A stretch of 64,000 nucleotides of DNA from Bordetella genomosp. 1 (lineage in GTDB: Bacteria > Pseudomonadota > Gammaproteobacteria > Burkholderiales > Burkholderiaceae_B). The stretch's first letter is position 1, and each line of letters opens with the position of its first letter. The notes under the pieces were generated by a model. That model was not told where the DNA came from. It saw only the letters and a program-made list of their open reading frames with translations, and searched no databases. The stretch covers positions 186,001 through 250,000 of the forward strand of contig NZ_NEVL01000002.1 of NCBI RefSeq assembly GCF_002261335.1. Direction: 5' to 3'. Both the position numbers and the translations under genes were made by a program. Positions 13,521 to 31,129 of the stretch are shown piece by piece.

Positions 13521-17570
<4,050 letters not shown>

Positions 17571-17571
<1 letters not shown>

Positions 17572-18224
17572 TGCGCAATCGTCTTTCCGCCGCGCTGCGC
17601 GGCACCCGGCTCGGTCTGGCCGCGCTGCTCGCCAGCGCCGCCCTGTTGCCGGGCCTGAGCCTGGCCGCCGACGCCCAGGCGCAGCTGCGCGCCTTCGTCG
17701 ACACCGTGAAGTCGGCCACCGGCAACTTCACCCAGTCCACCGTGGGCGCGCAGGGGCGCACCCAGCCCGCGCAGAGCGGCACCTTCGCCTTCCAGCGCCC
17801 GGGCAAGTTCCGCTGGGGCGTGCAGCGTCCCTACGAGCAACTTATCGTGTCGGATGGCAAGCAGGTCTACCAATACGACCCGGACCTGGCGCAGGTCACC
17901 GAGCGCAAGGTCGACCAGGCCATCGGCACCTCGCCGGCCGCCATCCTGTTCGGCTCGGGCAACCTGGAGCAGGCGTTCAATGTGGCGCCGCTGCCCGACC
18001 GCGACGGCATGCAATGGCTGCGCGCCAAGCCGCGCAATGCCGACGCCGGGTTTTCGCAGGTGGATATCGGCCTGAAAGACAATCTGCCGGCGCGCGTGGA
18101 GCTGCTCGATTCCTTCGGCCAGACCACCCGGGTCGAGCTCTCGGGCATCGCGGCCAACGCCGCGATCGGCGCCGAGACCTTCCAGTTCAGCGCGCCCAAG
18201 GGCGTGGATGTGGTGAAGATGTAG
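17571..18224 (+). CDS. lolA: Outer-membrane lipoprotein carrier protein LolA
   Basis: 217 residues with a signal peptide (hydrophobic [15 protein letters not shown], cut near SLA-ADA). The mature protein has the LolA pattern: [53 protein letters not shown] and a C-terminal beta strand ([14 protein letters not shown]). It carries lipoproteins across the periplasm from LolCDE to LolB. ATG at 17571 has GAGGAAG upstream and overlaps the ftsK stop (TGATG), so it is coupled to ftsK. Confidence 0.95.
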
Positions 18225-18306
18225 TGCCGCGCGCGCCAGGCTGGCGCGCGCCGCCGATCACGCGCACGCACGGGGCGTGCGCGGGGGGCCGCCGGCCCCC
18301 GCCTTG

Positions 18307-18341
18307 ACCGGGCGCCGTGTCGATCACGCGCCCGGTTTTTT
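18307..18341 (+). terminator. Intrinsic terminator of ftsK-lolA
   Basis: Nine-bp perfect stem (ACCGGGCGC / GCGCCCGGT) with a 12-base loop and a run of six T at 18336-18341. It overlaps the last codons of the convergent ridA gene. Confidence 0.85.
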
Positions 18342-18746
18342 ATACGCCACGCATTCCACCTCGACCTTCGCGTCGATCACCAGGCGCGACTCGACGCAGG
18401 CGCGCGCCGGGGGATGATCGCCGAAGTATTCGCGGAACACCTTGTTGAAAGCGGCGAAGTCGCGCGGGTCGTCGAGCCAGACGCCGCAGCGGATCACGTT
18501 TTCCGGGCCGTAGCCGGCTTCCTGGAGAATGGCCAGCAGGTTGCGGATCGCCACGTGCGACTGCGTCACCACGCCGCCCTCGACCACTTCGCCGTTTTCC
18601 ATGGGCACCTGGCCCGACACGTAGAGCCAGCCGTCGGCCTGCACGGCGCGCGCGAACGGCATGTTCTGGCCGCCCTGGCCGGTGCCGCCGGACACGCCGT
18701 AGCGGATGATGCCGTTGGCGTCGGGCTTGGGAGGGGTGTTGCTCAT
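18324..18746 (-). CDS. RidA family enamine/imine deaminase
   Basis: 140 residues of the YjgF/YER057c/UK114 family: GGTGQGGQNMPFARAV, LYVSGQVPM, GGVVTQSHVAIRNLLAILQEAG, VWLDDPRDFAAFNKVFREYFG and ARACVESRLVIDAKVEVECVAY. The arginine in AxxxxxSRL (here ESRL) is the residue that binds the imino-acid carboxylate in active RidA. It hydrolyses reactive 2-imino acids, products of PLP enzymes. It is the last gene of the D-amino-acid operon, 11 bp after the D-aminoacylase, with AAGGAG overlapping that gene's stop. The likely job is to clear iminoacids made by the operon's PLP deaminase. Confidence 0.92.
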   Translation of the reverse strand: MSNTPPKPDANGIIRYGVSGGTGQGGQNMPFARAVQADGWLYVSGQVPMENGEVVEGGVVTQSHVAIRNLLAILQEAGYGPENVIRCGVWLDDPRDFAAFNKVFREYFGDHPPARACVESRLVIDAKVEVECVAYKKPGA

Positions 18747-18757
18747 CAGGATCTCCT

Positions 18758-20227
18758 TCAGGGGTTGGACGATGCGGCGAAGCTGCCGCGCAGGTCGCCC
18801 GCGCGCGGCAGCCAGCGGCCGGCCCGCGTCGCGGCGGCCACGCCGTCACGATACGACAGCGTGCCATTGACCCAGACGGCGGCGATGCCGGCGGCGGGCT
18901 GGACCGGCGCGCGGAAGGTCGCCACGTCGCGCACGGTGGCGGGGTCGAACAGCACCAGGTCGGCGTGCCAGCCGGCGTGGATCTCGCCGCGCTCGGCCAG
19001 GCCGAAGCGGCGCGCCGACAGGCCGGTCATCTTGTGCACCGCCTGCTCCAGCGGGAACAGGCCGAGGTCGCGGCTGTAGTGGCCGAGCACGCGCGGGAAC
19101 GCGCCCCACAGCCGCGGATGCGGCAGCGGATCGTTGGGCAGGCCGTCCGAGCCGATCATGGTGAGGCGGTGCGACAGGATGCGCCGCACGTCGCCTTCGT
19201 CCATGCCGTGATACACGGCGCCGGCCGGTTGCAGGCGGCGCGCAGCGTCCAAAAGGCTGGTCTGCCACGCGGCCGCGATCTCGGCCAGCGTGCGGCCGGC
19301 CATCTCGGGGTGCGGCGTGGACCAGGTGATGTCGATCTCGAAATCGGCGGTGACCTGCTTCAGGTCGAGCGTGGACGAGCTGGCCGAGTAGGGATAGCAG
19401 TCGCAGCCCACCGGCTGCATCCTGCCGGCGGTGTCGAGCAGCGACAGCACCTCCTGGCTGCGGCCCCAGTTGCCCGCGCCGGCGCACTTGAGATGCGACA
19501 CGATCACCGGCACGCGCGCGTGCACGGCGATGTCGAATGCCTCCTGCATGGCCTCCAGGATCTCGGCGAATTCCGAGCGCAGGTGGGTGGTGTAGAGCGC
19601 GCCGTGGGCGTCGAGCTCGGCGGCGAGCGCCTTCACTTCGTCGGTGCTGGCGTCGAACGCGGAGGCGTAGGCCAGGCCGGTCGACAGCCCGATGGCGCCG
19701 TGCGCCAGCGCCTCGCGCAGCTGCGCCCGCATGGCGTCGATCTCGGCGGCGCTGGCGCTGCGGTCGAGCCGGTCCATGTGGTTGCTGCGCAGCGCGGTGT
19801 GGCCGACCAGCGCGGCCACGTTCACCGCCGGCCGCGCGGCGTCGACCGCCTCGGTATAGGCCTTGAAGGTGGGATAGCGGAAGTGGCTGGCGTCGCCCAG
19901 CAGGTTCATGGGATCGGGCGGCTCGCCCTGCAGGCTGACGGGGGCGGCGCTGATGCCGCAGTTGCCCACCACCACCGTCGTGACGCCCTGGGTCAGCTTG
20001 GGCAGCATCTCGGGCGTGCGGATCACGTTGGTGTCGTCGTGGGTGTGCACGTCGATGAAGCCGGGCGCCAGCACCAGGCCGGTGGCGTCGATTTCGTCGG
20101 CCGCACGGGCCCCGTCGAGGCCACCGATCGCGGCGATGCGTCCGCGCGCCAGCGCCACGTCGGCGCGCACGGCGGGGGCGCCGGTGCCGTCCAGCACCCG
20201 CGCGCCGCGGATCAGAGTGTCGTACAT
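18758..20227 (-). CDS. N-acyl-D-amino-acid deacylase (D-aminoacylase)
   Basis: 489 residues, amidohydrolase superfamily, same length and motif order as the Alcaligenes D-aminoacylase. Visible: N-terminal beta-sandwich (YDTLIRGARVLDGTG), LAPGFIDVHTHDD with metal-ligand histidines, VVGNCGIS with the bridging cysteine, TTHLRSE, VIVSHLKCAG, MIGSDGLPNDPLPHPRLWG with the catalytic aspartate, and the C-terminal return strand HADLVLFDP. Removes the acyl group from N-acyl-D-amino acids to yield free D-amino acids. In the operon it follows rpiR by one base. Acyl-D-Glu and acyl-D-Asp deacylases are alternatives that sequence alone cannot exclude. Confidence 0.93.
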   Translation of the reverse strand: MYDTLIRGARVLDGTGAPAVRADVALARGRIAAIGGLDGARAADEIDATGLVLAPGFIDVHTHDDTNVIRTPEMLPKLTQGVTTVVVGNCGISAAPVSLQGEPPDPMNLLGDASHFRYPTFKAYTEAVDAARPAVNVAALVGHTALRSNHMDRLDRSASAAEIDAMRAQLREALAHGAIGLSTGLAYASAFDASTDEVKALAAELDAHGALYTTHLRSEFAEILEAMQEAFDIAVHARVPVIVSHLKCAGAGNWGRSQEVLSLLDTAGRMQPVGCDCYPYSASSSTLDLKQVTADFEIDITWSTPHPEMAGRTLAEIAAAWQTSLLDAARRLQPAGAVYHGMDEGDVRRILSHRLTMIGSDGLPNDPLPHPRLWGAFPRVLGHYSRDLGLFPLEQAVHKMTGLSARRFGLAERGEIHAGWHADLVLFDPATVRDVATFRAPVQPAAGIAAVWVNGTLSYRDGVAAATRAGRWLPRAGDLRGSFAASSNP

Positions 20228-20228
20228 G

Positions 20229-21101
20229 TCAGTCTCCCAGCGGCAGGCGGTTCGGGCCGCCGCGGTATTCGTCGAGCGTCAGCTTGATGCGGCGCAGTCG
20301 TTCCTGGGTTTCGTCCTGGCGCGCGAGCGCGAGCTCGGTGGCGAGCAGATCGATGGCCAGCAGCATCGCGTAGCGCGAGGCGGAGGGCTTGTAGATGAAG
20401 TCGGTTTCGTCGGCGCGCACCGGCAGCACCACGTCGGCCATGGCGGCCAGCGGCGAGTCGGGATCGGTGAGCGCCACGATGCGGGCCTGGTACTGCTGCA
20501 CGATGCGCGCGGCCGACAGCATCTCCGGCGTGACGCCGGTGATCGACAGCATGACGACGGTGTCGCGCTGGTCGAGGGTGGAAGCCACCATGCGCATCAG
20601 CACCGCGTCGTTGTAGGCGGCGATGGGGTAGCCCAGCCGCACCAGGCGCGACTGCATCTCCTGCGCCAGCACCGCCGAGGCGCCGCCCATGCCGAACACG
20701 TAGTTCATGCGGGCCGCGGCGATGTGGCCGGCGGCGCGCTCGAAGATCGCCTCGCTGAACAGCGACAGGTGCGCGCGCAGCGTGGTCTCGATGTCGGCGC
20801 ACAGGCGCGCGTAGAAGGTGCTCTCTTCCTCGGGCGCGGCGCGGTCGAGAAAGCGTTCGCCGATGGCGCTGGCCTGGGCCAGCCGCAGCTTCAGGTCGCG
20901 CGTGTCGTCGCAGCCCGACGAGCGGGCGAAGCGCGAGATGGTGGCGATGCTGACCCCGGCCTTCTGCGCGAGCTGGTCCACCGTGGCGCCGGCCGCCCAG
21001 GCGATGTCTTCGAGGATGGCGTCGGCCACCTTGCGTTCGGTCGCGCTCAGGCCATCGCGGCAGCTGCGGATTTGGTAGACGATGTCGCGGTGGGAGTTCA
21101 T
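20229..21101 (-). CDS. RpiR/MurR family transcriptional regulator
   Basis: 290 residues. N-terminal helix-turn-helix (about 10-80: LSATERKVADAILEDI, TVDQLAQKAGVSIATISRFARSSGC) and C-terminal SIS sugar-isomerase domain (about 120-265: YVFGMGGASAVLAQEMQSRLVRLG, MLSITGVTPEMLSAARIVQQ, IVALTDPDSPLAAMADVVLPV). Family members often respond to phosphorylated sugars, but relatives near D-aminoacylase and peptide transporters probably sense a product of the pathway. It sits inside the D-amino-acid operon, between dppF and the D-aminoacylase, so it should be autoregulated. A candidate operator is at 27921-27971. ATG at 21101. Confidence 0.92.
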   Translation of the reverse strand: MNSHRDIVYQIRSCRDGLSATERKVADAILEDIAWAAGATVDQLAQKAGVSIATISRFARSSGCDDTRDLKLRLAQASAIGERFLDRAAPEEESTFYARLCADIETTLRAHLSLFSEAIFERAAGHIAAARMNYVFGMGGASAVLAQEMQSRLVRLGYPIAAYNDAVLMRMVASTLDQRDTVVMLSITGVTPEMLSAARIVQQYQARIVALTDPDSPLAAMADVVLPVRADETDFIYKPSASRYAMLLAIDLLATELALARQDETQERLRRIKLTLDEYRGGPNRLPLGD

Positions 21102-21129
21102 GCGTGGTGTTCCGTAAGCTGGGCCCGGG

Positions 21130-23123
<1,994 letters not shown>

Positions 23124-23125
23124 GC

Positions 23126-23998
23126 TTACAGCTCCTTGCGCAGGCGTGGGTCCAGCACGTCGCGCAGGCCGTCGCCGACCAACTGCAGCGAGAGCACGGA
23201 CAACACGATGGCCAGGCCGGGAAAGACCATGATCCAGTCGGCCTGGCCCATGTATTGCTGGCCGGCGTTGATCATGGTGCCCCAGGTGGGGATGTCGGGC
23301 GAGACGCCCACGCCCAGGAACGACAGGCCGGCTTCGGCCAGGATCGCGTAGGCGAAGATGAAGGTGCCCTGCACCAGGATGGGCGAGATCAGGTTGCGCA
23401 GCACGTGCACGCTGACGATGCGCCAGGTCGGCACGCCGAGCGCGCGCGCCGCCTCCACGAAAGGCAGTTCGCGGATCACCAGCGTGGAGGCCCGCACGAT
23501 GCGCGCCAGGCGCGGCGTGTAGACGATGCCCAGCGCGATCACCACGTTGAGCAGCGACGGGCCGAGCGCGGCCACCAGCGAGATCGCCAGCAGGATGTCG
23601 GGGAACGACATCATCGCGTCGATCAGGCGCGAGACGAACTTGTCGGCGCCGCGGAAGAAGCCTGCGATCAGGCCCAGCGCGATGCCGAGCACGCTGGCGA
23701 GCACCACCACCGAGAAGCCCACCATCAGCGAGAGCCGGCCGCCGTGGATCACGCGGCTGAACACGTCGCGGCCGAAGTCGTCGGTGCCGAACCAGTAGGT
23801 GGCGCTCGGCGGCTTCAGGCGGTTCATGATCGAGAGCTTGAGCGGATCGTGCGGGCTCAGCCAGGGCGCGAGCAGCGCCGCGCCCACCAGCAGGATCAGC
23901 ACGATGAGGCTGATCAGCACGGTCTTGCGCGCGACCAGCAGTTTGAGGATCTGCCAGCGGTCGTGGCCGGCGTCCATGGTTTGCGTTGCGATGGCCAT
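23126..23998 (-). CDS. Peptide-type ABC transporter permease (DppC-like)
   Basis: 290 residues, six membrane helices with the DppC-type N-terminal extension (TVLISLIVLILLVGAALLAPWLSPHDP) and the permease EAA loop VEAARALGVPTWRIVSVHVLRN that contacts the ATPase. Forms the channel with the DppB-like permease. ATG 23998, one base after dppB. Confidence 0.94.
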   Translation of the reverse strand: MAIATQTMDAGHDRWQILKLLVARKTVLISLIVLILLVGAALLAPWLSPHDPLKLSIMNRLKPPSATYWFGTDDFGRDVFSRVIHGGRLSLMVGFSVVVLASVLGIALGLIAGFFRGADKFVSRLIDAMMSFPDILLAISLVAALGPSLLNVVIALGIVYTPRLARIVRASTLVIRELPFVEAARALGVPTWRIVSVHVLRNLISPILVQGTFIFAYAILAEAGLSFLGVGVSPDIPTWGTMINAGQQYMGQADWIMVFPGLAIVLSVLSLQLVGDGLRDVLDPRLRKEL

Positions 23999-23999
23999 A

Positions 24000-24941
24000 T
24001 CAGTAGCGCACCCGTGGGTCGACCACCAGGTAGAGCAGGTCGATGACTAGATTGATCAGGACATAGATCGCGGCGATCACGAGCAGCGCGCCCTGGATCA
24101 CCGGATAGTCGCGTCGCTTCACGGCCGAGACCACGAGGCTGCCCACGCCGGGCAGGCCGAACACGGTTTCGGTGACGACGGCGCCGCTGATGAGCAGCGC
24201 GGTGGTCAGGCCGAGCACAGTCAGGATCGGGATCAGCGCGTTGCGCACGGCGTGCTTCATCACCACGCGGCGCTCGGGCAGGCCCTTGGCGCGCGCGGTG
24301 CGCACGTAGTCGTCGCGCAGCACGTCGAGCATGCTGGCGCGGATGAAGCGCGTGATGAGCGCCGAGTTCACCAGCCCCAGCACCACGGCTGGCAGGATCA
24401 GGTGCGAGAGCCGCGTGGCGAGCGATGCGTCGGGGCCGCCATAGCCCGCCACCGGCAGCCAGCCCAGCTTGACCGAGAAGATCTGCATCAGGATCAGGCC
24501 CAGCCAGAAGCTCGGCACGCTGGAGGTGAACATCGAGAAGGTCAGCACGGACTGGTCGAGCGCGGTGCCGCGCTTGACCGCGGACAGGATGCCCACCGGC
24601 AGCGCGATCGCGCTGGCGATGATGAGCGACATCAGCGTGAGCCAGAACGTGGGCTCGGCGCGGTCGGCGAGCGCCGCCAGCACCGGCTTGTTCAGGAAGA
24701 TCGATTGCCCGAGGTCGCCCTGGGCGAGCTGCAGCAGCCAGGTCCCGTATTGCACGGGCAACGGGCGGTCGAGCCCGAGGTGGGCGCGCAGCGCGGCCAC
24801 GTCGGCCTGGCTCGCTTCCGGGCCCAGCATGACCGAGGCCGGGTCGCCCGAGATCAGGCGCAGGATCACGAAGACGATGGTGGCGACCAGGAACATCACC
24901 GCCACCATGCCGAGCAACCGGTTCAAGAGATAACGCAACAC
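24000..24941 (-). CDS. Peptide-type ABC transporter permease (DppB-like)
   Basis: 313 residues with six membrane helices. LNRLLGMVAVMFLVATIVFVI and FDP-like spacing in the N-terminus, TSSVPSFWLGLILM, and the EAA loop YVRTARAKGLPERRVVMKHAVRNALIPI are typical of DppB. The start is GTG at 24941, supported by AGGAAG five bases upstream. It is separated from dppA by 84 bp holding a strong stem-loop, the usual arrangement that lets the binding protein be made in excess. Confidence 0.94.
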   Translation of the reverse strand: MLRYLLNRLLGMVAVMFLVATIVFVILRLISGDPASVMLGPEASQADVAALRAHLGLDRPLPVQYGTWLLQLAQGDLGQSIFLNKPVLAALADRAEPTFWLTLMSLIIASAIALPVGILSAVKRGTALDQSVLTFSMFTSSVPSFWLGLILMQIFSVKLGWLPVAGYGGPDASLATRLSHLILPAVVLGLVNSALITRFIRASMLDVLRDDYVRTARAKGLPERRVVMKHAVRNALIPILTVLGLTTALLISGAVVTETVFGLPGVGSLVVSAVKRRDYPVIQGALLVIAAIYVLINLVIDLLYLVVDPRVRY

Positions 24942-24970
24942 GGGGACTTCCTCATTCGGACGGCGCCGGG

Positions 24971-25000
24971 GCGCGCGGCGGCGGGAGTGCCGCCACGCGC
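24971..25000. other. Stem-loop between dppA-like and dppB-like genes
   Basis: Ten-bp arms (GCGCGCGGCG and CGCCACGCGC, one mismatch) with a ten-base loop and no T run. In ABC importer operons such structures stabilise the binding-protein mRNA or attenuate transcription into the permease genes. No terminator form is visible. Confidence 0.4.
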
Positions 25001-25025
25001 CGGCCGTGCATGACGATGGCCGGAC

Positions 25026-26591
25026 TTACTTCTTGGCGGCCGCCTTCCAGGCGTTCCAGAAGTAGGGCCACGGCGCGGGGCGGGTGCCCTGCAGCGCGGG
25101 CGAGCGGGCCGACTGGGCGTTGAAGTCGCCGACCTTGATGAAGGGCACTTCCTCGTACACGGCCTGCTGCACGTCGGCCCAGCGCTTGACGCGTTCTTCC
25201 TGGGTGCGGGCCTGGTTGAAGGCACCCAGCACCTGGTTGCGGCGCGGCGTGTCCCACCAGCCCGGCGCGTCCTTGGAGGGGAAGTCGATCAGGGCCGGCT
25301 CGGGCAGGAACGGGCTGTGGGTGATGAAGATGTCCCAGAGCGCCGGATCCTGGCGGCGTTGCGTGAGCGTGGCCCAGTCCACCACCTGCATGTCGACCTT
25401 GAAGCCGGCGGCCTTGAGGTACTCGGCCGCCACCAGCGCCATCTTGTAGTGGAACTCGTACTGCTGGCTGGTCAGGATGCGGATGGTGCGGTCCTGCACG
25501 TTGGCGCCGTCGGCCAGCTTCTTGGCGCCGGCGGCATCGCCCTTGTTGTAGAACTTCTCGCCCTGCCTGGTCGCCCAGGGGTAGCCCTCGGGATAGAGGT
25601 CGCCGTTCAGGCGATAGAAGTCTTTGTTGCCGAACGCGGCGTACAGCATGTCTTCTTCGTTGAGCGCGAGCTGCACGGCCTGGCGCACGGCCAGGTTGGA
25701 CATGATGCCCTGCTTGGTGTTGAGCACCAGGCGCGGCCAGCCGAACGGACGCAGCATCACCGGATCCGAGCGGCCGCTCTTGAGCTTGTCGAGCGACTCC
25801 ACCGGCAGCGAATCGACGTAATCGAACTGCCCGGCCACCGCCGCTTCGACGCGGGTGTTGGCGTTGCTGACCGGCACGAAGCGGATCTCGTCGAGGTATT
25901 GCTTGCGGGCGCCGCCGTAGCCGTCCGGCTCGCCGTCGCGCGATTTGTAGCCGTCGAAGCGCGTGAGCTGGATGTATTGGTCGGGCAGGCGCGCCTTGAG
26001 CTGATAGGGGCCGGTGCCGACGAATTCGGTGAGCTGCGGCGCGATCTTGCCCTTGGGCAGGATCACCGCGGCGCTGTTGTTCATGGCCAGCAGCGCGGTG
26101 AGCGGCGCATAAGGCTGCTTGAGCGTGATCTTGATCGTGTTGGCGTCGGGCGCGTCGATCGCACCGATCAGCTTGGCGGCGGACTTGCCGCGCGACGCGG
26201 TCTCGGTCCAGCGCTTGAGCGAGGCCAGCACGTCGGCCGAATCCATCTTCGAGCCGTCATGGAAGGTGATGCCCTGGCGCAGCGCGATGGTGTAGGTCAG
26301 GCCGTCGGCGCTCACCTCGGGCATCTTGTCGGCCAGCAGCGGCGTGAGGTTCCACTTCGCATCGAAGGTGTAGAGCGTCTCGAAGATGTGCTGCGTGACG
26401 ATGCCGACCAGGTCGGCGGTGCTGCTCATCGGATCGAGCGTGGGCGGCTCGCCGATGGTGGCGACCGAGATGGTGCCGCCCTTGACGGGATCGGCGGCGA
26501 GGGCGGGCGCGGCGTGCAGCGACAGGCCGAGCAGGGTGGCCAGCAACAGGCGGCCGAAACCGCCCGCGGGGCGGGTGTTGCGCAGATGCAT
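25026..26591 (-). CDS. Peptide/D-amino-acid-type ABC transporter substrate-binding protein
   Basis: 521 residues, SBP family 5 (DppA/OppA fold). Signal peptide (GFGRLLLATLLGLSLHAAPALA, cut before ADPVKGG). Family motifs: GEPPTLDPMSSTAD, HIFETLYTFDAKWNLTPLLADKMPEVSADGLTYTIALRQG split over several strands, FVGTGPYQL, and the C-terminal WDIFITHSPFLPEP. Delivers the substrate to DppBC in the periplasm. By context the cargo is likely N-acyl-D-amino acids or short D-amino-acid peptides rather than ordinary dipeptides; this is inference. ATG 26591 has GGAG eleven bases upstream (GGAGACCAACC before ATG). Confidence 0.93.
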   Translation of the reverse strand: MHLRNTRPAGGFGRLLLATLLGLSLHAAPALAADPVKGGTISVATIGEPPTLDPMSSTADLVGIVTQHIFETLYTFDAKWNLTPLLADKMPEVSADGLTYTIALRQGITFHDGSKMDSADVLASLKRWTETASRGKSAAKLIGAIDAPDANTIKITLKQPYAPLTALLAMNNSAAVILPKGKIAPQLTEFVGTGPYQLKARLPDQYIQLTRFDGYKSRDGEPDGYGGARKQYLDEIRFVPVSNANTRVEAAVAGQFDYVDSLPVESLDKLKSGRSDPVMLRPFGWPRLVLNTKQGIMSNLAVRQAVQLALNEEDMLYAAFGNKDFYRLNGDLYPEGYPWATRQGEKFYNKGDAAGAKKLADGANVQDRTIRILTSQQYEFHYKMALVAAEYLKAAGFKVDMQVVDWATLTQRRQDPALWDIFITHSPFLPEPALIDFPSKDAPGWWDTPRRNQVLGAFNQARTQEERVKRWADVQQAVYEEVPFIKVGDFNAQSARSPALQGTRPAPWPYFWNAWKAAAKK

Positions 26592-26631
26592 GGTTGGTCT
26601 CCGGTGAGGGACTACAACAAACTGCCAGGGG

Positions 26632-27909
26632 TCAGAAATAGGTTTCGGCGATGCCGGTGACGGTGTGGCTGTCGTCGATCAGCAGGATCTGGCGCCACTT
26701 GTCGAAGGTCAGGCAGGGATGCGAAATGTCGAAGGCGATCATGTCGCCCACCGCGATGTCGTCGCCGGGGGCGATTTCCATGAAGGCGTGCTGATCCATT
26801 ATGGCGGTGAGTTTCCAGTGGGCCGGGGCGGCCTGCGGCGCCGGGGCCTCGCCGCCCGGGCGATACACGGTGGCGGGCACCGGCAGGCCGGCGTCGAACG
26901 CCGCGTCGCGCTTGCCCAGCGCCACGATGGCGCGGCCGGGCTCGGGCACGGACTGCACATAGGCCCACACCTGCAGGGCGGGCAGCAGGCCGGGGGCGAG
27001 GCGCTGCGCGACCGGGTTGTGCGCGGCGATGCGCTCGGCGGCGCTGCGGTAGATGCCCACGTCGTGGCTCAGGTAGCAGCCGGGACGCAGCACGATCTCG
27101 AGCGGCTGGCCGATCTCCAGGCCGGCGAATTCGTCGGCCACCACGTCGAACCAGGCCGAGCCCGCGCCGGAGATCAGCGCGGGGCCGTCCTGGCGCAGAC
27201 GGCCGTCGGCGGCCAGCGTGCGCAACGTGGCGGTGGCGCGTTGCAGGAAGGCGCGGATGTCGGCCTCGTTCTGCAGCACGCCTTCATAGACTTCGATGCC
27301 GGCCAGCGCGAGGGCGCCGGGCCAGCGCGCCAGCTCGTCGAGCACGGCCTGCAGTTGCGCCTCGTCGCGCACGCCGTTGCGGCCGCCGGCCACGCCGAGC
27401 TCGATCAGCACCGGCAGCGTCTGCCCGGCGCTTTGGAAGAAGGCGCCGAGCTGCGCGACATTGCGCGGCGAGTCGACCAGGCAATAGAACGAGAAATCGG
27501 AATCGCGCAGCAGGCGCGCGATGATGGCCATGTTGGCGCGGCCCACCAGCTGGTTGGCCAGCAGCACGCGGCGCACGCCGTGGTGATAGGCCGCCTGCGT
27601 CTGCGGGGCGGTGGCCAGCGTGATGCCCCAGGCGCCGGCGTCGATCTGGCGGCGGAACAGCGAGGGGCTCATGGTGGTCTTGCCGTGCGGCGCGAGCTTG
27701 ACCCGGTATGCCTCCATGAATTGCTGCATCCACCGCAGGTTGTGCGCGACGCGCCGCTCGGACAGCACGGCGGCCGGCAGGCTCACGTCTTCGGCCAGCA
27801 GATTCCAGCCCAGGCCGGCAACCTGGGCGGTGGTACAGCCGGGCTCGAACAGGCCCAGGCCTTTGCCATCGGGGTCGAGCGGGAGGGGGCCGGGCAGCGG
27901 GGTCACCAT
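26632..27909 (-). CDS. PLP-dependent D-amino-acid deaminase (D-serine dehydratase/D-threonine aldolase-like)
   Basis: 425 residues, fold-type III PLP enzyme. The N-terminal alanine-racemase-like barrel (about 40-290) carries the PLP lysine in KLAPHGKTTMSP. The C-terminal D-ser_dehydrat domain has DQHAFMEI and DISHPCLTFD, the His and Cys that bind zinc in eukaryotic-type D-serine dehydratases. Such enzymes deaminate D-serine, D-threonine or D-threo-3-hydroxyaspartate to the 2-oxo acid through an enamine/imine. First gene of the D-amino-acid operon; ATG 27909 has AAGGA seven bases upstream. RidA at the end of the operon would act on its imine product. The exact substrate is open. Confidence 0.88.
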   Translation of the reverse strand: MVTPLPGPLPLDPDGKGLGLFEPGCTTAQVAGLGWNLLAEDVSLPAAVLSERRVAHNLRWMQQFMEAYRVKLAPHGKTTMSPSLFRRQIDAGAWGITLATAPQTQAAYHHGVRRVLLANQLVGRANMAIIARLLRDSDFSFYCLVDSPRNVAQLGAFFQSAGQTLPVLIELGVAGGRNGVRDEAQLQAVLDELARWPGALALAGIEVYEGVLQNEADIRAFLQRATATLRTLAADGRLRQDGPALISGAGSAWFDVVADEFAGLEIGQPLEIVLRPGCYLSHDVGIYRSAAERIAAHNPVAQRLAPGLLPALQVWAYVQSVPEPGRAIVALGKRDAAFDAGLPVPATVYRPGGEAPAPQAAPAHWKLTAIMDQHAFMEIAPGDDIAVGDMIAFDISHPCLTFDKWRQILLIDDSHTVTGIAETYF

Positions 27910-27920
27910 GGCGCGTCCTT

Positions 27921-27971
27921 GAAAATTTTTACCATCAATCGACGATGGCGAAATTATCCTGAAAATAATTT
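27921..27971 (-). promoter_or_regulatory. AT-rich operator/promoter region of the D-amino-acid operon
   Basis: An AT-rich island in GC-rich DNA. It contains the inverted repeat AAATTAT (27951-27957) / ATAATTT (27965-27971), a second dyad CCATC (27932-27936) / GATGG (27944-27948), and GAAAATTTTT at 27921-27930. RpiR-family operators are commonly of the GAAA-N-TTTC, A/T-rich type, so I propose this as the site of the operon's RpiR protein. The leader to ATG 27909 is short. Confidence 0.45.
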
Positions 27972-28121
27972 ACAGGCGGGAGTTGGGAGTTTCCCGTATC
28001 CGGCCCGCGTCAGGGGCCCCGACGCCCCGCACTGCGGGGGCGCCCGGCCGACCCGCGTGCTCATGGTGTAATTGAGGGTCCAAAGCCCCGTGCCGATTCC
28101 TGGATTTTTCTGCTGTCGCCC

Positions 28122-29456
28122 ATGAGCAACGATCTTTTCGATGCCGATCCCACCCACCGGCCCTACGTGCCGCTGGCCGAACGCCTGCGGCCGCGCACGC
28201 TGGCCGACGTCGTCGGGCAATCGCATCTGCTGGGCCCCGGCAAGCCGCTGCGGGTCGCCTTCGACTCGGGGCGGCCGCACTCGATGATCTTCTGGGGGCC
28301 GCCCGGCGTGGGCAAGACCACGCTGGCGCGCCTGATGGCCGACGGCTTCGACGCGCAGTTCATCGCGATCTCGGCCGTGCTCGGCGGCGTGAAGGACATC
28401 CGCGAGGCGGTGGTCACGGCGCAGGTCGCGCAGGGGCAGGGCCGGCGCACCATTCTGTTCGTCGACGAGGTGCACCGCTTCAACAAGGCGCAGCAGGATG
28501 CCTTCCTGCCCTACGTCGAGAGCGGCCTGTTCACCTTCATCGGCGCGACCACCGAGAATCCCTCGTTCGAGGTGAACTCGGCCTTGCTCTCGCGGGCCCG
28601 CGTGTACGTGCTGCAATCGCTCTCGCCCGAGGAGCTCACGCTGCTGGTCGAGCGTGCGGTGGCCGCCTTCAACCAGGGCCGCGACGAGGCCGTGAGCTTC
28701 GATGCCGAGGCCGTGCAGCAGCTTGCCGCCTGGGCCGATGGCGACGCGCGCCGCGTGATCAGCGCGGTCGAGGTGGTGGCCGAATCGGCCGAGTCGGCCG
28801 GCCACCGCAAGGTCGACCCGGCCTGGCTCGAAACCGCGCTGTCGCAGAACCTGCGGCGCTTCGACAAGGGCGGCGACGCCTTCTACGACCAGATCAGCGC
28901 GCTGCACAAGTCGGTGCGCGGCTCGGCGCCCGACGCCGCGCTCTACTGGCTGGCGCGCATGCTCGACGGCGGCGCCGATCCCAAGTACCTGGGCCGGCGC
29001 ATCGTGCGCATGGCCATCGAGGACATCGGCCTGGCCGACCCGCGCGCCACCGAGCTGGCCGTGAGCGGCGCCGACATCTACGAACGGCTCGGCTCGCCCG
29101 AGGGCGAGCTCGCGCTGGCGCAGGCGGTGGTCTACATGGCCTGCGCGGCCAAGTCCAACGCCGTCTACGACGCCTACAACACCGCACGCAAGTTCGCCAC
29201 CGAACACGGCAGCGCGCCGGTGCCCATGCATCTGCGCAACGCGCCCACCAAGCTGATGAAGCAGCTGGGCCACGGCCACGCCTATCGCTACGCCCACGAC
29301 GAGCCGCACGGCTACGCCGCGGGCGAGAATTATTTCCCGGATGGCCTCAACCCGCGCTTCTATCGGCCGACCGATCGCGGGCTGGAGGCTAAAATCCAGC
29401 AAAAGCTCGCCTTCCTGCGCGAGCTCGACGCGCAAGCGCGCGACAAAAAGCGCTGA
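28122..29456 (+). CDS. rarA: Replication-associated recombination protein RarA (MgsA)
   Basis: 444 residues, AAA+ clamp-loader-like ATPase. Walker [15 protein letters not shown] (59-66 core), Walker [19 protein letters not shown], sensor 1 [24 protein letters not shown], then the tetramerisation/C-terminal domain with [16 protein letters not shown] and [16 protein letters not shown]. Acts at stalled replication forks. Upstream bases 27972-28121 hold no gene. In many Burkholderiales rarA directly follows lolA; here a 9.6-kb operon lies between them. Confidence 0.95.
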
Positions 29457-30848
<1,392 letters not shown>

Positions 30849-30868
30849 GCGGCACCCGCCAAAAAGAG

Positions 30869-30898
30869 AGCCCGGATGCGAAATCCGGGCTTTTTTTT
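30869..30898 (+). terminator. Intrinsic terminator after serS
   Basis: Nine-bp perfect stem (AGCCCGGAT / ATCCGGGCT), GCGAA loop, then eight T (30891-30898). The following gap to 31129 has no gene; it holds an AT-rich stretch with a TTGATG at 31025-31030 and a 12-bp palindrome CAATAGCTATTG at 31075-31086, probably the promoter region of the next small gene. Confidence 0.93.
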
Positions 30899-31129
30899 GC
30901 CCGCTCGCCGGGCTTGGGCACGCTGCTTGCTCTAAGAGCTTCGTCTTTGTCGGTGGCAGTACGGAGCCCGGAGATCGCCATAATTCTGTCTTATGGCATT
31001 GCTAGACTCCTCGTACTGCTGCTATTGATGTGACAAATATGTACAAGCAATAAAAAGGGCCGCATCTTACGGCACAATAGCTATTGCTAGGCAGGTACGT
31101 CACCTTCATTTCAATAGAGGAAGCTAACC

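Follow-up and report, generated by a model that had tools for sequence, protein, structure and literature searches.

In Pseudoalteromonas the oxidised chitin monomer N-acetyl-D-glucosaminate (GlcNAc1A) is broken down by the products of the ong genes, which, like the deacetylase PpOngB, belong to the oxidative chitin pathway described in Pseudoalteromonas prydzensis (PMC9537276). According to this report OngB deacetylates GlcNAc1A, OngC converts the D-glucosaminate (GlcN1A) to 2-keto-3-deoxygluconate (KDG) and ammonia, KdgK activity could be shown, OngR acts as a repressor, and OngD is required for growth, its role being unknown to the authors in 2022. A Paraglaciecola operon with genes for a GH20 protein, a sodium:solute symporter (SSS), RidA, a D-aminoacylase, an RpiR regulator and a deaminase was drawn in 2020 (PMC7014002), and a report on Aeromonas gives the oxidative route as unconfirmed and the OngB and OngC homologues as distant or absent (PMC11653859). 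Achromobacter piechaudii ATCC 43553, a strain outside the genomes examined here, is named as having the complete pathway (PMC9537276). Here we describe a nine-gene operon within a stretch of 64,000 nt from Bordetella genomosp. 1 (the window), which probably is an ong-type operon with an inserted ATP-binding cassette (ABC) importer and would, judged from its sequence, take up and break down GlcNAc1A. In the open-licence literature searched, neither a GlcNAc1A importer of the ABC type nor the operon of Bordetella and Achromobacter was noticed as the subject of a paper.

The nine genes occupy positions 18324..27909 on the minus strand and encode, in this order, a pyridoxal 5′-phosphate (PLP) dependent deaminase, a binding protein of family 5, the two permease and two ATPase components of an ABC importer, an RpiR regulator, a D-aminoacylase-like hydrolase and RidA. 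Gene reading and family scans confirmed the coordinates, the order and the families given in the original prediction, and we also agree with its view that the genes form one operon in which an importer, an N-deacylation, a PLP deamination and a dedicated RidA look like one route. The window and the Pseudoalteromonas cluster share the order ongC-ongR-ongB-ongD and have identical OngB cavity residues. They differ in that ABC genes separate ongC from ongR in the window, whereas Pseudoalteromonas has the SSS carrier OngIT, and in that the kinase of the window genome lies on another contig. Both Pseudoalteromonas records, L139 and L140, show the four genes in this order; in L140 an SSS carrier, a kinase and a GH20 gene follow, and in L139 the place of the carrier is a gap in an incomplete gene table.

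In the proposed pathway the binding protein and the ABC importer likely bring in GlcNAc1A, from which OngB likely removes acetate to give GlcN1A. OngC would then likely eliminate water and ammonia from GlcN1A to form KDG via an enamine/imine, and OngD (RidA) would hydrolyse this intermediate. A KDG-kinase homologue and a 2-keto-3-deoxy-6-phosphogluconate (KDPG) aldolase, encoded side by side elsewhere, would yield pyruvate and glyceraldehyde-3-phosphate, and OngR likely represses at a palindrome before ongC. Support at the sequence level comes from gene content and order, from the cavity and clade of OngB, from the kinase and aldolase genes and from the palindrome.

The best solved relatives of the hydrolase are, by bit score, 9g5m (672), PpOngB (9kb1, 562), the D-aminoacylase AfDam (1m7j, 501) and the N-acyl-D-glutamate deacylase BbDam (3gip, 406). 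The 9g5m protein matches the D-aminoacylase encoded in an ong cluster on a Klebsiella plasmid with 100% identity; a literature search on this entry gave no relevant paper. The alignment with PpOngB is ungapped (PpOngB residue number = window OngB number + 7), and the two proteins agree at all seven cavity positions, namely A193, E226, A256, S290, S292, Q298 and G348. In PpOngB the residues Gln298, Ser292 and Glu226 are reported to hold the hydroxyls of GlcNAc1A, and exchanging Ser292 for Thr or Gln298 for Ala or Asn left 1.3-10% of the efficiency (PMC12017989). The residues A, E, A, S, S and Q at the first six positions are present in 104 of 115 aligned sequences, a sample leaning to the ong clade because its 80 loci are best hits; the remaining 11 comprise AfDam and ten further proteins whose identity does not exceed 56%, two of them paralogues from the window's own genome, and all 11 carry Thr292 and never Gln298. 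In the SSS-type loci L129 and L131 Ser292 and Gln298 are kept, with Gly at 290. AfDam and the window OngB belong to a common fold family with the metal/catalytic residues Cys, His, His and Asp, but AfDam has Phe191, Met254, Thr292 and Met346 where the window OngB has Ala, Ala, Ser and Gly. In BbDam position 292 is Thr and an Arg takes the place of Gln298 (residues from PMC12017989); the window OngB has Ser and Gln. Neither the hydrophobic cavity of the AfDam type nor the residues of the BbDam type were found in the window OngB.

In a tree of 38 rows a branch with 100/100 support separates the 27 rows with Ser292/Gln298, among them PpOngB and 9g5m, from all others, and the clade of the window OngB with PpOngB excludes the D-aminoacylases and both paralogues from its own genome (L119 and L120, on another contig, 48-49% identical to OngB). 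Five rows of a larger 43-row tree are left out here, namely L109, L013, L036, L090 and the distant L148, which has 37.7% identity and an end branch of 6.0. The window OngB has the cavity of a GlcNAc1A deacetylase and not that of a D-aminoacylase, and deacetylation of GlcNAc1A is its predicted reaction.

These results bear on the substrate class originally proposed, according to which the operon salvages ordinary N-acyl-D-amino acids by import, deacylation, PLP deamination and RidA. The database names of the hydrolase (D-aminoacylase, N-acyl-D-amino-acid deacylase) point this way, as do the reported activity of Pseudoalteromonas OngC on D-Ser and D-Thr (PMC9537276) and a related binding protein in Azospirillum, whose gene adjoins those of a D-aminoacylase and RidA. 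However, cavity and clade are those of the GlcNAc1A deacetylases, and for OngB of three Pseudoalteromonas members the published assays describe no detectable activity on N-acetyl-D-amino acids (PMC12017989). Moreover, the genome has the two paralogues as further hydrolases, both with Thr at 292 as in AfDam, the operon-bearing Bordetella pseudohinzii does not use D-Ser or D-Thr, and the linkage to a KDG kinase would be left unexplained. The gene set, moreover, is that of the published ongCRBD. We consider such a salvage route improbable, and D-amino acids as the substrate class are not supported. The proposal came close because GlcNAc1A is chemically an N-acetyl-D-2-amino acid.

We then compared the neighbourhoods of the named loci, the 80 best among 587 confirmed hits; a gene counted as present with at least 60 bits in tblastn, several contigs being short. 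The co-occurrence survey suggested with the original prediction found all nine genes together in 14 of these loci, all from Bordetella or Achromobacter, and this recurrence argues that the grouping is not due to chance. The others contain ongC, ongR, ongB and ongD without the ABC genes (26 loci), ongR, ongB and ongD (2), ongR and ongB (33) or ongB alone (5). In a survey of gene order 68 of 399 genomes gave a match at 1e-120, and there is a gap in identity between 22 places with at least 68% and the other listed places with at most 56%. RidA adjoins the hydrolase at 22 of the 22 high-identity places and RpiR at 21; at the eight low-identity loci fetched (L106-L113) the respective numbers are zero and one, which supports the notion of a dedicated RidA.

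Jeongeupia (L018) and Andreprevotia (L025) share the order of ongC, ongR, ongB and ridA with the window, their clusters reading ongC-GntP-ongR-ongB-ridA-kdgK. They differ by having a carrier of the GntP (gluconate:H+ symporter) family between ongC and ongR, where the window has its ABC importer, a KDG kinase gene after ridA and a lytic polysaccharide monooxygenase (LPMO) in the genome. An SSS gene lies next to ridA in L129 and L131, and a GntP gene follows ongC in L128 and L130 (in L130 by tblastn only).

What is new in the window is the insertion of an ABC importer of five genes after ongC and before ongR, an arrangement which occurs in Bordetella and Achromobacter genomes without LPMO, whereas clusters of other lineages contain an SSS or GntP carrier. 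The chances seem to us about even that this importer is dedicated to the oxidised chitin monomer and belongs to a free-riding module which would harvest GlcNAc1A produced by the LPMOs of others and in which RidA would be specialised for the KDG imine. It could instead be a peptide importer that merely landed in an ong operon, the two halves doing different jobs: the family-5 fold is common to DppA, OppA and AppA, and the best NCBIfam matches of the binding protein are models for glutathione, nickel, oligopeptides and dipeptides, all below their cut-offs. Yet the fold comparison places binders of N-acetylneuraminic acid (Neu5Ac) and of agropinic or mannopinic acid in family 5 too, the arrangement is kept in all 14 complete loci, and a GntP or SSS carrier occupies the cluster in other lineages, so that we regard an unrelated peptide importer as very unlikely. 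The peptide or muropeptide cargo of the original prediction likewise found no support among the relatives of the binding protein, the neighbours of six of the seven viewed including RidA together with a gene of amidohydrolase type or a ureide gene. Naming the ligand from the fold was abandoned, as binders of peptides, nickel chelates, opines and Neu5Ac score alike and the model has a middling mean pLDDT of 74.9.

The window OngC is 46-47% identical to OngC of the two Pseudoalteromonas ong clusters, and the PHGKT and HPC motifs are invariant across 18 aligned OngC. The structure 3gwq, labelled D-serine deaminase in the PDB, is 95% identical to OngC of the Paraburkholderia loci L021 and L031, and its true substrate may be D-glucosaminate. 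Probably the names D-aminoacylase, amino acid deaminase and D-serine deaminase (including that of 3gwq) need correcting for this clade. OngR is 44% identical to the RpiR protein of the Pseudoalteromonas ong clusters. HexR, the best NCBIfam match with 169.6 bits, was rejected as its identity since the score is below the cut-off of 296.

The RidA protein scores 94.4 bits with PF01042 (cut-off 27.3) and 94.1 bits with TIGR00004, below the cut-off of 106.25. Its gene has the same place as the RidA gene in the ong clusters of Pseudoalteromonas and Klebsiella. In L019 (Achromobacter sp. UMC46, 10001 onward) OngB and RidA form a single open frame of 639 aa, the only locus of 79 tested for which we report this; the protein clusters P0069 and P0118 contain OngB-RidA fusions as well, and the fusions span 632-639 aa. 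Such a fusion ties RidA to this route. A script had flagged nine of the 79 loci, of which L019, L095 and L100 were checked again: seven of the flagged frames stop after 489-495 aa, shortly beyond OngB, and in L100 there is a stop codon between the OngB and RidA genes. We also note that the window RidA, with its score just under the TIGR00004 cut-off, reads PFARA where the archaeal relative 2dyy reads PYSQA; perhaps it is a variant fitted to a bulky imine.

On another contig of the same genome an IclR gene, a KDPG aldolase gene (TIGR01182, 175 bits, cut-off 156) and a PfkB kinase gene lie in a row. The kinase is closest to the model for the bifunctional kinase of KDG and 2-keto-3-deoxygalactonate (KDGal), with 198 bits at a cut-off of 400, and is 56% identical to the kinase adjoining ongC in L136. 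Of 200 family genomes, all 29 that have this OngB also carry the kinase, as do 10 of the 171 that lack this OngB (p = 9e-27, a value which overstates independence as the genomes share ancestry). A KDG kinase gene stands next to ong genes in Jeongeupia and Andreprevotia (350 and 385 bits, same cut-off), in L134 and L136, and in Pseudoalteromonas and Pseudomonas. This tie between deaminase and KDG kinase in several lineages is expected if the deaminase makes KDG. All 12 Pseudomonas genomes searched have a homologue of OngC (52-54% identity) away from ongB. In the two cases fetched the pathway is split, with GntP-ongR-ongB at one place and RidA, OngC and the KDG kinase at another (L155: RidA, IclR, OngC, KdgK in a row; L156: RidA, OngC, KdgK, same order by tblastn).

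Another reading is that the same chemistry acts on an oxidised chito-oligosaccharide or on a different N-acylated aminoaldonic acid, N-acetylgalactosaminate and N-acetylmannosaminate being examples. The closest model of the kinase is the bifunctional one, the Klebsiella cluster has an annotated 2-dehydro-3-deoxygalactonokinase next to its ong genes plus an aldolase for phosphorylated KDGal (KDPGal), and family-5 binding proteins can hold larger ligands. We give such substrates little weight, since Gln298, Ser292 and Glu226, the hydroxyl contacts to GlcNAc1A, are all kept and since the genome is without a GH20 enzyme for trimming oligosaccharides.

LPMO was searched in 24 genomes and matched in four, those of Jeongeupia, Andreprevotia and two P. 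chlororaphis. None of the 14 Bordetella and Achromobacter genomes gave a match, nor did P. asuensis or five genomes of Paraburkholderia, Trinickia, Burkholderia or Caballeronia. With neither LPMO nor GH20 the operon would live on GlcNAc1A released by others, and its carriers are probably scavengers of this compound.

Several points weigh against GlcNAc1A as the substrate. Its use by the window proteins is predicted from sequence; OngC shares only 46-47% of its residues with an enzyme that deaminates D-Ser and D-Thr too, and the importer is of the ABC and not of the published SSS type, its GlcNAc1A cargo being a prediction. OngIT is not in the window cluster, which has the ABC importer instead; the rest of the genome was not searched for SSS carriers. 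The kinase homologue lies outside the operon and stays below its NCBIfam cut-off (198 of 400 bits), the genome lacks matches to the chitin-active AA10 LPMO (PF03067) and to the GH20 hexosaminidase OngA (PF00728), and in the 43-row tree with the distant L148 the split that isolates the OngB clade reaches only 39/84. In addition, the strain from which L004 comes, B. pseudohinzii 8-296-03, carries the full operon and is listed as not using glucosaminic acid; GlcNAc1A is not in that list (PMC5244500). The same list gives gluconic acid, N-acetylglucosamine, D-Ser and D-Thr as unused and D-Ala, D-Asp and D-glucosamine as used. This profile weighs against salvage of free D-Ser and D-Thr, and it calls for caution for GlcN1A as well, unless the importer or the inducer needs the acetylated form.

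If the assignment to GlcNAc1A is true, the oxidative chitin pathway extends beyond chitin degraders to LPMO-free bacteria, animal-associated bordetellae included, which consume the oxidised product. One catabolic core would then be served by three unrelated carriers (SSS, GntP and ABC), and the role of OngD/RidA, left open in the 2022 paper although the protein is essential (PMC9537276), becomes testable.

The palindrome TGTAAATTATTTTCA before ongC, our predicted OngR operator, is the sole site in the genome within two mismatches (control 0). Leaving out L001 as a copy of the window, we found 11 or 12 of 12 matches to the consensus GAAAATNATTTTC before ongC in 12 of 49 upstream regions and at least 10 matches in 15; as the consensus was chosen from these same regions, the shuffle counts are after the fact. 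The sites with 11-12 matches span Bordetella, Achromobacter, Chitinibacteraceae, P. asuensis and further gammaproteobacterial loci, and in most loci of Achromobacter the same place holds a variant with 9 of 12 matches. Before ongC of the Paraburkholderia-type loci and of L129 and L131 the consensus is absent.

Table 1. Features of the predicted ong-type operon of the Bordetella genomosp. 1 window
Feature	Position	Strand	Remarks
Predicted OngR operator, palindrome TGTAAATTATTTTCA	27960..27974	-	51-65 bp upstream of ongC
ongC, PLP deaminase of fold III, predicted to convert D-glucosaminate to KDG	26632..27909	-	PF14031 + PF01168
Solute-binding protein of ABC importer, family 5	25026..26591	-	
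DppB-like ABC permease	24000..24941	-	PF00528, PF19300
DppC-like ABC permease	23126..23998	-	PF00528, PF12911
DppD-like ABC ATPase	22116..23123	-	PF00005, PF08352
DppF-like ABC ATPase	21130..22119	-	PF00005, PF08352; ATG at 22119 overlaps stop of DppD-like gene
ongR, RpiR-family regulator	20229..21101	-	PF01418 + PF01380
ongB, predicted GlcNAc1A deacetylase (annotation: D-aminoacylase type)	18758..20227	-	PpOngB cavity + clade
ongD, RidA family, predicted KDG-imine hydrolysis	18324..18746	-	PF01042

The genes had been said to be mostly overlapping or within about 30 bases of each other. This is correct for six of the eight junctions, which overlap or measure at most 30 bp, but not for ongC/binding protein (40 bp) and binding protein/permease (84 bp). 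The remaining distances are 1 bp between the permeases, 2 bp between permease and ATPase, an ATGA overlap of the two ATPase genes, 28 bp between ATPase and ongR, 1 bp between ongR and ongB and 11 bp between ongB and ongD. For ongR we used the ATG at 21101; an upstream GTG at 21155 is likewise open. No match was obtained in an Rfam scan of 15000-31000 and no sigma-70-type site in a promoter scan, and terminator-like matches, being near chance (5 against 3.4 expected), were not used. The genes on both flanks are on the opposite strand; we take them to be a RarA-like gene from 28122 and FtsK-like and LolA-like genes up to 18224.

Related importers are also found in other surroundings. Two family-5 ABC operons on Rhizobium plasmids (L141 and L142) encode a binding protein 65-66% and permeases 69-70% identical to those of the window. 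They also contain RidA and a gene for either a ureidoglycine aminohydrolase or allantoin catabolism, and this company suggests that the rhizobial importers have an allantoate-like cargo. Their stretches have no match to ongB, ongC or ongR; the hydrolase is a different one, and one of the two has an annotated aminotransferase.

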